64,000 bases of DNA, taken from positions 191,972-255,971 of the forward strand of contig NZ_LMJA01000028.1 in assembly GCF_001428895.1 (NCBI RefSeq), given 5' to 3'. Below the pieces are notes generated by a model. That model saw nothing but the letters and a program-made list of their open reading frames with translations. It ran no database searches and was not told where the DNA came from. The position numbers and the translations under genes were made by a program. The stretch is from Mycobacterium sp. Root265. GTDB taxonomy: Bacteria > Actinomycetota > Actinomycetes > Mycobacteriales > Mycobacteriaceae. This document shows, piece after piece, positions 23,833 to 25,959 of this stretch (position 1 is the first letter of the stretch; each line of letters opens with the position of its first letter).

Positions 23833-24896
23833 TAGGTCACTCCCTTCACTTTCTTGGCTTCTGCGAGCACCAGTTGGTGGATCAGCTTGGACATTGCCTC
23901 GGCCTTGTCTCCGCGCATCTCTACGTCGGCGAACGCTTCAGCGATTGCCTCAACGATATATGGACCCTTGTCCCGGTCGCTGTTCTCGTACGAGTACGCA
24001 GAGACGAGCTTGGTGGACATCCACTTGTTGTACTGCTGCCGGAACTGACCAGGGGTCGGATTGTTGCCGCTCCACAGGTCATCGATCATGTCCGCGTACT
24101 CCGGGCTCGTGCGGAACTTCGACTCCAGCGCCGCCTCGATCTTGCGCTGCGAGCCGCCCTTGCCGTTGATGTCCATGACGTGACCCATCTCGTGGATCAT
24201 CGTGTAGTAGACCGGTCGAGCCGCGTAGTCGTCGTTGTACTGGGCGTACTTGTTGTCGTAGTACGACCGCTTGGACGCGCTCGCGGCGCGGGCACGGTCA
24301 GCGTCAGAGGCCAACGGGGCGTTGATCGCCACGTAGTGGCCGATGCCGTCTCCGTGGATGCTGAACACACCAGACGCGTGAGCGTAGGAGCTGGTCTCTT
24401 CACCGCGAACCGGGTAGTACTCGCCTCGAAGCGCCTTCAGCTTGACGAACGGGTACTTCGTCAGGATGTCATCGACCGCCTGGGCGAACTGGCGAGTCGA
24501 CTCGAGGCTGAGTTCCTTCGGGGTAATCCCGGCGCCGATGCGGCCGGGAGGCTGCACGGAGGAGAACTCGGGGTTAACCAGCGAGTGAACGTCGATGCCC
24601 CACTTGTTGCGGATGTGGAGCGCGATCTCCTGGCGAGTCTTTGCGGTCTTCAGAACGTCGTCTTGAGTGCTCGGTTGCCCGATGACACCACTTCCAGAGC
24701 CTGAGCCGTTACCGCCACCGGTCTGAATGCCGCCAGTGCTGGTGCTGCCAGTTCCACCGGAGCTTGAGCCCCCGCCTGAACCGCCACCACCGCCGGCCGA
24801 TCCTCCACCAGGAGAACCGGCGCCTGCGCCGCCGTTGCCTCTATTGCCGCGACCCTTTCCGGTGCCAGGGCCGGAACCGCCTCTACCCTGTCCCAT
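23832..24896 (-). CDS. Gly-rich HExxH putative metallopeptidase
   Basis: 354 residues from the ATG at 24896 (MGQGRGGSGPGTGKGRGN). The first ~70 residues are almost entirely Gly/Ser with a few basic residues, a flexible leader. The rest is a folded domain with YYTMIHEMGHVMDINGKG, a zincin HExxH motif, and downstream YIVEAIAEAFADVEMRG, where a Glu (in EAIAEAFAD) could be the third zinc ligand. This resembles toxin-type zincins (lethal-factor-like). Encoded among left-end genes, so possibly virion-associated or injected. Its substrate is unknown. Confidence 0.75.
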   Translation of the reverse strand: MGQGRGGSGPGTGKGRGNRGNGGAGAGSPGGGSAGGGGGSGGGSSSGGTGSTSTGGIQTGGGNGSGSGSGVIGQPSTQDDVLKTAKTRQEIALHIRNKWGIDVHSLVNPEFSSVQPPGRIGAGITPKELSLESTRQFAQAVDDILTKYPFVKLKALRGEYYPVRGEETSSYAHASGVFSIHGDGIGHYVAINAPLASDADRARAASASKRSYYDNKYAQYNDDYAARPVYYTMIHEMGHVMDINGKGGSQRKIEAALESKFRTSPEYADMIDDLWSGNNPTPGQFRQQYNKWMSTKLVSAYSYENSDRDKGPYIVEAIAEAFADVEMRGDKAEAMSKLIHQLVLAEAKKVKGVT

Positions 24897-25563
24897 CGGT
24901 GATCTGCTTTCGTCGTCGGTCCCAGAAGGTCGGATATTCACGAACCTCGGGGAGATCCAGGCCATCGCTATAGCGGAGCTGGCCGTAAGACAGCAGCAGC
25001 TTCGGTTGAGTGCGATCGACGAGCTCTTGGAGCCCGTCTCTAAATAGAGCCTGGTCGGATTTATATTTATGGGCGCCCATAGAGCTGGTCGCCACGATGG
25101 AATTAAGCGGAATCCCATCGAAACAGAAGTTATACGTATCCGGCGTGCCCCAATGGGCGGTCGGAATGACGTTTATGCCGTGCGATTGCCAATAAGCGCC
25201 ACACCAGCGGTTGCGATATACGTTCCAGACCTGTGCGGCCATCGGCATATCGACCCATATGCTGAAATCGGGCGTCAATGACGCTCCGACCGCTTTTACG
25301 CGGTCGAGGAGACGCTCGGGGGACGACCAAACCGTCTCGAAACGGTAGTCGTCAAGGAAGAAGTGCAGGGCGCCATCGTTCTCAGCGGAGAACTCACGCT
25401 GTCGCGGCATGTTCCACGCCGCCAGGTTCTCTGGCTCGAACTCAGTCGGTGCTAGATCGGGGATCTGGTACGGAGACGAGGAGTCGAAGACCTGTCGCAG
25501 GTTGAGGACATCGAACTTCCCCGGTTGCGAGTTCCAGAAGGCGCTGGTTCGGGTGCCGAACAA
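24883..25563 (-). CDS. DUF4417 protein
   Basis: 226 residues, TTG start (25563) preceded by AAGGGG. Matches the DUF4417 pattern: FFLDDYRFETVWSSPER, TPDFSIWVDMP, NVYRNRWCGAYWQSHGINVIPT, FCFDGIPLNS. Common in phages and mobile elements; function unknown. First gene of the left arm after the hairpin array. Confidence 0.88.
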   Translation of the reverse strand: MFGTRTSAFWNSQPGKFDVLNLRQVFDSSSPYQIPDLAPTEFEPENLAAWNMPRQREFSAENDGALHFFLDDYRFETVWSSPERLLDRVKAVGASLTPDFSIWVDMPMAAQVWNVYRNRWCGAYWQSHGINVIPTAHWGTPDTYNFCFDGIPLNSIVATSSMGAHKYKSDQALFRDGLQELVDRTQPKLLLSYGQLRYSDGLDLPEVREYPTFWDRRRKQITDGTG

Positions 25564-25582
25564 TTGGCACCCCTTCTTTTAA

Positions 25583-25875
25583 GCCGCCTCAGGGCGGCGC
25601 TAAACCCGCAGTTGCGGGTTGACTGATGACCGGCCGAAAGCCGGTCTGATCAGGAGCGACCCTTGGAGGTCGCTCTTCATGAGCGAGACGCCTGAAGCGT
25701 CTCTTAAGAGGGGCTCTTGCCCCTCTATATATAAGTAGGTGTATGCACTTGACACCCACCACCGGAGGTGGTACAGCTCACACTTCTAATACGAGCGCCC
25801 TGAGAGGCGCTCTAATGAATGGCCCTTACGGTGACACGCGGATGCGTGGAAAATGCGCCAGCGTCGAGCTGGGCG
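25583..25875. repeat. Array of consecutive perfect hairpins at the left genome end
   Basis: Stems in order: 25583-25598 (6 bp), 25603-25620 (7), 25628-25646 (7), 25654-25675 (8), 25685-25703 (7), 25707-25726 (8), 25758-25772 (6), 25793-25812 (7), 25835-25848 (5), 25855-25875 (8 with one bulge). Stem sequences all differ; loops are 3-6 nt. The first six follow each other with only 3-9 nt between. Several joints are themselves palindromes (CTGATCAG, CTCTTAAGAG). The array lies in the untranslated region between putative cos and the first left-arm gene. Confidence 0.85.
25748..25760 (-). promoter_or_regulatory. Stoperator, exact consensus, inside the hairpin array
   Basis: Reads CTTGACACCCACC on the plus strand. 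It overlaps the seventh hairpin. Its orientation suits rightward transcription through the cos region, not the leftward structural operon, the one site whose direction does not match its nearest gene. Confidence 0.8.
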
Positions 25876-25949
25876 CTCCTGACTAGCCTCTCAGTGCGAG
25901 CTCAGTGCGAGTTTGGGCTTCGGAACCCGTACAGGATGTCTCGTCCGCA

Positions 25950-25959
25950 TTACCGACCG
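25950..25959. other. Candidate cos site (10-base overhang)
   Basis: TTACCGACCG, reverse complement CGGTCGGTAA, which I recall as the type of 10-base 3' cohesive end found in Cluster A phages. It falls where the phage ends should be: about 390 bases upstream of the first left-arm gene and beyond the right-arm early promoters. Flanked by a palindromic ACCGACCGGT stretch and by GGGGGACTCCCCC at 25976. Confidence 0.55.

Follow-up and report, generated by a model that had tools for sequence, protein, structure and literature searches.

A covarying chain of short hairpins ahead of the first late gene in a Cluster A-type mycobacterial prophage and its relatives

Introduction

What are perfect hairpins of unlike sequence doing shoulder to shoulder beside the cos site of a prophage? 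The preliminary description of this DNA counted eight of them in one run at 25583-25875 and took the common geometry of the different stems as a sign of selection for structure, not of a copied repeat. It left two main places for the array, either the 5' leader of the structural transcript or, in DNA, a cruciform-forming element beside the packaging site. Here, we ask which of the two positions the array occupies, whether its pairing is kept in related phages and what its shape might be good for.

Results

The left end of a Cluster A-type prophage

The array lies in a 64 kb stretch of a 6.67 Mb bacterial genome, the whole of which is called the window. Around 25 kb, the window appears to hold a prophage of Cluster A kind, judged by its flank and left arm. 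The flank near this position matches phage left ends, with 341 of 370 records coming from Mycobacterium and 28 of 370 from Gordonia phages. The left arm of the prophage is encoded on the minus strand, the late (structural) strand. Its left end begins at 25949, reading down, with a TGCGG..CTGTACGGGTT-type sequence of the kind that opens the records of relatives (TGCG..TGTACGGGTT at the same place). The ten bases preceding this start, CGGTCGGTAA, differ by one base from the right end of D29, which reads ..CCGGTCGGTTA. Based on this match and on the record starts of the relatives, cos was placed at 25950-25959. Gene 1 starts at 25563, corresponding to phage position 387.

Features of the left end:
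25950-25959, minus strand: inferred cos single-strand extension CGGTCGGTAA, from relatives' records and the D29 right end
25570-25576, minus strand: Shine-Dalgarno-like GAAGGGG of gene 1
25551-25572, minus strand: hairpin of 7 bp with a loop of 8 nt that holds the TTG start codon of gene 1
24883-25563, minus strand: gene 1, first gene of the late operon, DUF4417 protein of 226 aa (phrog_940, 'nuclease')

A chain of perfect hairpins in the window

All eight hairpins of the preliminary description, with stems of 6-8 bp and loops of 3-6 nt, were found again. The first six, as described, fill the 144 bases of 25583-25726 with stems of 6-8 bp, loops of 4-6 nt and gaps of 4, 7, 7, 9 and 3 nt, and the palindromic joints reported between them are present as well (CTGATCAG at 25646-25653 and CTCTTAAGAG at 25701-25710). 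The grouping of all eight into a single run needs to be revised, as only six lie downstream of the late promoter and would belong to the minus-strand transcript.

Hairpins, in the direction of late transcription:
25793-25812, minus strand: eighth hairpin of the preliminary description, 7 bp, loop of 6 nt, on the cos side and outside the late RNA leader
25758-25772: seventh hairpin of the preliminary description, 6 bp, loop of 3 nt, upstream of the late promoter and overlapping a stoperator-like site
25707-25726, minus strand: hairpin 1, 8 bp, loop AAGA, at the predicted RNA start
25685-25703, minus strand: hairpin 2, 7 bp, loop TTCAG
25654-25675, minus strand: hairpin 3, 8 bp, loop TCCAAG; it is helix 1 of alignment A2 (see below) and covaries across the relatives
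25628-25646, minus strand: hairpin 4, 7 bp, loop TTTCG; it is helix 2 of A2 and likewise covaries across the relatives
25603-25620, minus strand: hairpin 5, 7 bp, with the loop AACT here and AACC in 36 of 43 loci; as helix 3 of A2, it covaries most strongly
25583-25598, minus strand: hairpin 6, 6 bp, loop CTGA, the final one ahead of the ribosome site

The hairpin chain is not a chance product. Shuffling 25583-25726 2000 times gave a mean of 0.29 and a maximum of 2 hairpins in comparison to the 6 observed, and 2000 shuffles of 25583-25875 reached at most 3 in comparison to 8. The array is the densest spot for such hairpins within the window, and 400 kb of the host genome, taken as 20 stretches, held no more than 4 of them per 150 nt throughout. 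Folding of 25564-25895 as RNA yielded z = -7.7 for the minus and -5.9 for the plus strand. By eye, none of the six stems is followed on the minus strand by the T-run of an intrinsic terminator or attenuator. Scanning the window with Rfam 15 at the gathering threshold returned three tRNAs and no family over the array.

The late promoter region

The DNA between the array and the cos-side hairpin carries three sites of note.

25768-25781, minus strand: CRP-like dyad GTGA-N6-CCAC, centred 49.5 nt before the array start and upstream of the late promoter
25748-25760, minus strand: stoperator-like site GGTGGGTGTCAAG, fitting the consensus in 12 of 13 letters
25728-25733, minus strand: -10-like hexamer TATATA

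The stoperator consensus is GGTGG(C/A)TGTCAAG (PMC5712189). From the position of the hexamer, the late RNA is predicted to start at about 25725-25720, and the equivalent place in D29 agrees with the start near 230 published from RNA-seq. Judged by the putative -10, transcription would begin within the GGGG of hairpin 1, and this hairpin may be shortened in the RNA.

A Crp-like dyad GTGA-N6-(T/C)CAC (compare the Crp consensus TGTGA-N6-TCACA) precedes the array in 44 of 57 loci (25768-25781 on the minus strand of the window and relatives L123-L172, L229 and L234-L244), with 0.3 expected from shuffles and none in 45 copies of gene 1. Dyad and array start could both be placed in 33 loci, and in 31 of these the dyad is centred 47.5-51.5 nt ahead of the array. 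Host Crp may activate the late promoter. Sigma-factor-annotated genes are present in D29 (gene 53, L246:35925-36632) and WC1 (WC1_43, L245:32184-32774) and are candidate readers of this promoter. By eye, the promoter end of the array reads ATG AGG GGC TGA/TAA in many phages (L123-L160), possibly a leaderless short frame, which is missing where the RNA start reads ATAGAGGGG, as in the window. Counterparts of the cos-side hairpin at 25793-25812, with a CTCTCAG-like loop and a stem that varies between phages, were also seen by eye in relatives; this hairpin may belong to cos.

Relatives that share gene 1 share the array

A profile search with gene 1 gave 181 loci, 80 of which were kept. We used the 45 with a Cluster A-type left arm, namely 44 relatives and the window's own copy (L122); the other 35 were more distant or partial. 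A further search kept 80 of 184 loci, and from this set L042 alone was examined. Strict hairpins, defined as stems of at least 6 bp excluding G-U pairs, were counted in the 150 nt leader ahead of gene 1.

An array precedes gene 1 in 45 of 45 loci. The leaders hold 3-6 strict hairpins per 150 nt (mean 5.16), and every one exceeds its own 100 shuffles, which average 0.34 hairpins, those of one leader reaching 4. Control windows within gene 1 (n = 225) have a mean of 0.65. One metagenomic contig (L164) is an exception in having a longer array, starting at 241.

Stems in the relatives are mostly of 7-8 bp and loops of 4-6 nt. Stems, loops, hairpin number and spacing all vary widely from phage to phage, and loops differ from slot to slot, so that mainly the shape is kept. 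Even in slot 0, the slot of the AACC loop, 43 loci share 13 distinct stem-loops between them (L137 and L164 have no clear AACC-type hairpin, leaving 43 of the 45 in this list). Stems have a GC content of 85% and linkers one of 30%. C is the base preferred by mycobacterial RNase E, and it makes up 15.4% of the linkers versus 32.4% of gene 1; G, at 14.5%, is depleted equally. The linkers are thus A/T-rich only, and we rejected an RNase E signature. In 35 of 45 loci, a hairpin begins within the first codons of gene 1.

Gene 1 homologs also occur in another setting. At L166, L168-L171, L173 and L042, which comprise phage contigs of 68-78 kb and a contig of Mycolicibacterium sphagni, DUF4417 genes are surrounded by clustered tRNA genes, 9-14 per cluster.

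Compensatory changes keep three stems paired

Pairing is kept by compensatory substitutions in the three hairpins tested. Alignment A2 was made with MAFFT from 41 distinct leaders, including the window copy, and was scored over three hairpins with 22 pairs; L164 and the duplicates L131, L132 and L157 were left out, and the rows L130, L146, L152 and L172 were retained even though they look misaligned in places. In total, 98.0% of the cells pair. Changes on both sides affect 9 pairs and 64 cells, in comparison to 3.9 and 19.1 after shuffling, and none of 500 shuffles reached either value. As these shuffles ignore relatedness, the control with slid partners matters, in which pairing dropped to 27-46%. 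The number of further pair types was unexceptional (16 versus 14.4, with 86 of 500 shuffles reaching 16). Comparing related left ends for compensatory changes was the check proposed at the outset, and the array passed it, which supports the claim of selection for structure.

RNAalifold missed the last hairpin of A2, because two loop types shift the register of the MAFFT alignment; this hairpin stays outside the pair count and was read by eye from the lists. As a comparison of the two strands, G-U pairs were set against A-C pairs; the named stems of A2 with listed pair letters hold too few such intermediates to favour either strand (4 G-U cells and 1 A-C cell). A census allowing one mismatch gave 6 G-U and 5 A-C, with spurious stems mixed in. 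Folding in relation to shuffles was better for the sense strand in 37 of 57 leaders and in 30 of 45 gene 1 controls; the sense strand is therefore favoured no more than in the controls, and both strands fold about equally.

The array moves with the promoter and operon, not with cos

Ten mycobacteriophages with a differing operon start and the Rhodococcus phages RGL3 and WC1 have arrays of like geometry built from different stems. An HNH endonuclease is the first annotated gene in Kampy, BlueBird, Goose, SWU2, Saintus, Naca, MyraDee, Daishi and LittleCherry, and in Trike nothing is annotated ahead of the terminase small subunit. Strict hairpins number 8 in Naca, 6 in Kampy, BlueBird, Goose, Saintus, Daishi and LittleCherry, 5 in Trike, 4 in SWU2, RGL3 and WC1, and 3 in MyraDee. 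In these twelve phages, where the regions were picked after inspecting hairpins, 500 shuffles reach maxima of 2-4 and 11 of the 12 arrays exceed their own shuffles, SWU2, Trike and RGL3 by just one; the 3 hairpins of MyraDee are not above its shuffles. Two other stretches of the WC1 genome likewise reach 4 strict hairpins per 180 nt. Paired changes in two stems were seen by eye between RGL3 and WC1. The array starts at 225 in D29, where it is the densest hairpin region, spans 196-427 in Kampy, where gene 1 is annotated at 538, and lies at 516-665 in WC1. No array was seen ahead of DUF4417 genes in other phages or prophages (14 loci checked, each with 0-3 strict hairpins per 400 nt) or at the left end of the Che8, Giles and phiC31 records, whose left 700 bases hold 2 strict hairpins each.

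The array start, set by a GAGGG pattern, was placed in 40 of 45 loci. We report 36 of these, as the placement was wrong for L164 (first hairpin at 241, about 294 nt before the assumed start) and doubtful for L137, L163 and L165. From the array start to gene 1 the distance is 141-177 nt (sd 11.7; 36 loci), versus 223-513 nt (sd 125) to the left end in the 35 of these loci that include one. All 40 placements give 141-177 nt (sd 12) and 205-513 nt (sd 122), respectively. The varying distance to the left end is explained by additional DNA that separates cos from the promoter. The array thus moves with the promoter and operon, and the proposed cruciform or packaging element beside cos does not fit a distance to cos that changes this much.

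Several leaders carry further features. At LittleCherry L242:436-513, near-identical neighbouring hairpins GCCCGC..GCGGGC occur three times, which suggests that duplication can lengthen an array whose hairpins later diverge. A subset shares, by eye, an extra GGTGAGAGCCTCG..TTT..GGCTCGGCTC-like element before the hairpins (L239:280-330, L242:275-320, L238:285-335, L163, L165 and L241:300-345). In BlueBird (L234:150-205) and WC1 (L244:485-515), a purine-rich tract with Shine-Dalgarno-like repeats runs from the predicted RNA start to the first hairpin; by eye, it is also present in others with an HNH gene first.

Published transcription of the region

According to RNA-seq, the late transcripts of L5 and D29 begin near a stoperator at about 230 bp from the left end (PMC5712189). 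In Kampy, a start lies near 200, and the highest single peak at 60 min is located upstream of gene 1; the authors explain it as a pile-up of reads at a start site (PMC4626039). Coverage in Kampy is at all times highest upstream of gene 88, at the opposite end (PMC4626039). These starts put the array between the late promoter and the first left-arm gene, the start site being taken from the relatives, and they support the earlier proposal that it is the 5' leader of the structural transcript.

In WC1, the non-coding feature nc_1 outranks every other genome feature in counts at 30, 60 and 120 min (PMC10986025). Lying between WC1_1 and WC1_2, it corresponds to 375-717, as judged from these flanking genes, and the array is inside it at 516-665. 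The same paper elsewhere names the terminase small subunit as most highly expressed at 60 and 120 min (PMC10986025). For L5, StarStuff, RedRock and SWU1, it reports right-hand RNA only (PMC10986025), so that accumulation of the left RNA is not universal. The other two abundant non-coding regions of WC1 hold 1 and 4 scattered strict hairpins and no array; abundance, thus, does not require one.

Discussion

The conserved property of the array is mainly its geometry, a nearly continuous cover of hairpins that begins at about the RNA start and runs up to the ribosome site. With a modest lean in its favour, we hold that the array serves the late (Pright) mRNA as its untranslated 5' leader and acts through its shape, likely by shielding the 5' end. 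The chain of independent, GC-rich hairpins of 6-8 bp with short A/T-rich linkers, reaching from about the RNA start to the gene 1 ribosome site, would leave the 5' end of a message of about 25 kb with little single-stranded RNA. Scarce open RNA would in turn give little foothold to nucleases dependent on a free 5' end or on open RNA, and to Rho, which requires open untranslated RNA. Distinct stem sequences would let each hairpin fold locally. The stems, mostly of 7-8 bp, would be stable yet much shorter than typical RNase III targets. Slower decay of the late mRNA through a shielded 5' end would be the most likely role, and we regard protection of the 5' end and leader as the most economical reading of the conserved geometry. 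RNase E limits the decay of most mRNAs in M. smegmatis, those with leaders often being affected more (PMC10641625).

The leader might instead act on RNA polymerase, as a put- or nut-like element that confers resistance to termination over the long late operon. Such a role would suit an array that begins at the promoter of a long operon whatever the first gene, and the extra GAGCCTC..TTT..GGCTC-like element seen by eye in Saintus, Naca, LittleCherry, Daishi and the L163/L165 pair could be part of it. Known put and nut elements, however, keep defined sequences, whereas here mainly shape is kept, and we consider this reading unlikely. We think it less probable still that an abundant non-coding RNA is released from the late transcript and acts as a scaffold or sponge, either for ribosomes or for a protein of the host or the phage. 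The high late coverage in WC1 and Kampy (in the data cited above), the AACC loop kept in one slot in 36 of 43 loci and a weak Rfam match to rsmX (E 0.032), a multi-hairpin protein sponge, speak for such an RNA; yet the loops differ between slots, only 2 of 247 contain GGA, and the rsmX score of 23.6 compares with a gathering score of 56.

A role of the array in controlling gene 1 translation, or in keeping the leader free of ribosomes, is suggested by the TTG start codon in a hairpin loop in the window (25551-25572) and by the hairpins that start in the first codons of gene 1 in 35 of 45 loci. Arrays, however, also precede unrelated first genes (DUF4417 or HNH), and DUF4417 genes elsewhere do without one in the 14 loci checked, which makes this role very improbable. 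At the level of DNA, cruciform or packaging roles are poorly supported, and we give the least credence of all to a cruciform-forming or terminase-binding element of cos. The array does lie less than 400 bp from cos in the window, and perfect stems are possible on either strand, both of which fold about equally well. Its distance to gene 1 is nearly fixed, though, in comparison to 223-513 nt to the left end, and in L145, by eye, the extra DNA does not separate the cos-side hairpin from cos.

Structured leaders are a known kind of element, and the hairpin-chain form appears undescribed in the openly licensed literature. The non-coding late transcript at the left end of Kampy (PMC4626039) and nc_1 of WC1 (PMC10986025) share place, late timing and very high coverage with the array; the cited parts of these accounts report coverage and do not describe a hairpin chain or its compensatory evolution. 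L5/D29 Pright starts in the same region, about 230 bp from the left end and with a stoperator, and the cited part of that report does not mention leader structure (PMC5712189). In the openly licensed literature searched, we found no description of the covarying hairpin chain, although one may exist elsewhere; what was found, in the parts cited, treats the region as a transcription start or peak.

Among better-known RNAs, ompA-type mRNAs are stabilized by a 5' stem-loop. The likeness lies in a structured 5' end that slows decay, which for the array is our proposal; the ompA type has one or two hairpins in contrast to a chain of about 5-9 here. The put sites of HK022 resemble the array in placing leader hairpins next to a phage promoter, but their sequence is essential, whereas that of the array varies widely. 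RsmX, RsmY and CsrB share the chain of short hairpins and, through rsmX, the weak match; identity with these sponge RNAs was rejected on the scarcity of GGA loops and the low rsmX score.

More tentatively, and with more doubt than conviction, we suggest that the array represents an undescribed, widespread class of actinobacteriophage RNA, a late-leader chain selected mainly for geometry while its stem sequences are widely replaced. In some phages, it would then build up to one of the most abundant phage RNAs in infected Mycobacterium and Rhodococcus, and it could serve there as armour for late messages or as a trans-acting RNA that affects host RNA decay or translation.

Cluster A is heavily sequenced, with 341 Mycobacterium records matching one query. 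The authors of the Kampy study, in the part cited, found the region not conserved between subclusters by BLAST (PMC4626039); conservation of shape can be strong in a region called non-conserved on the basis of sequence. A review from 2022 notes that few late promoters have been characterized and calls for work on them (PMC9262239). The compensating hairpin chain is a concrete RNA with which this question can be tested, and it offers one structure behind the unexplained RNA-seq peaks of Kampy and WC1. It could also serve as a part for stable mRNA in mycobacteria.
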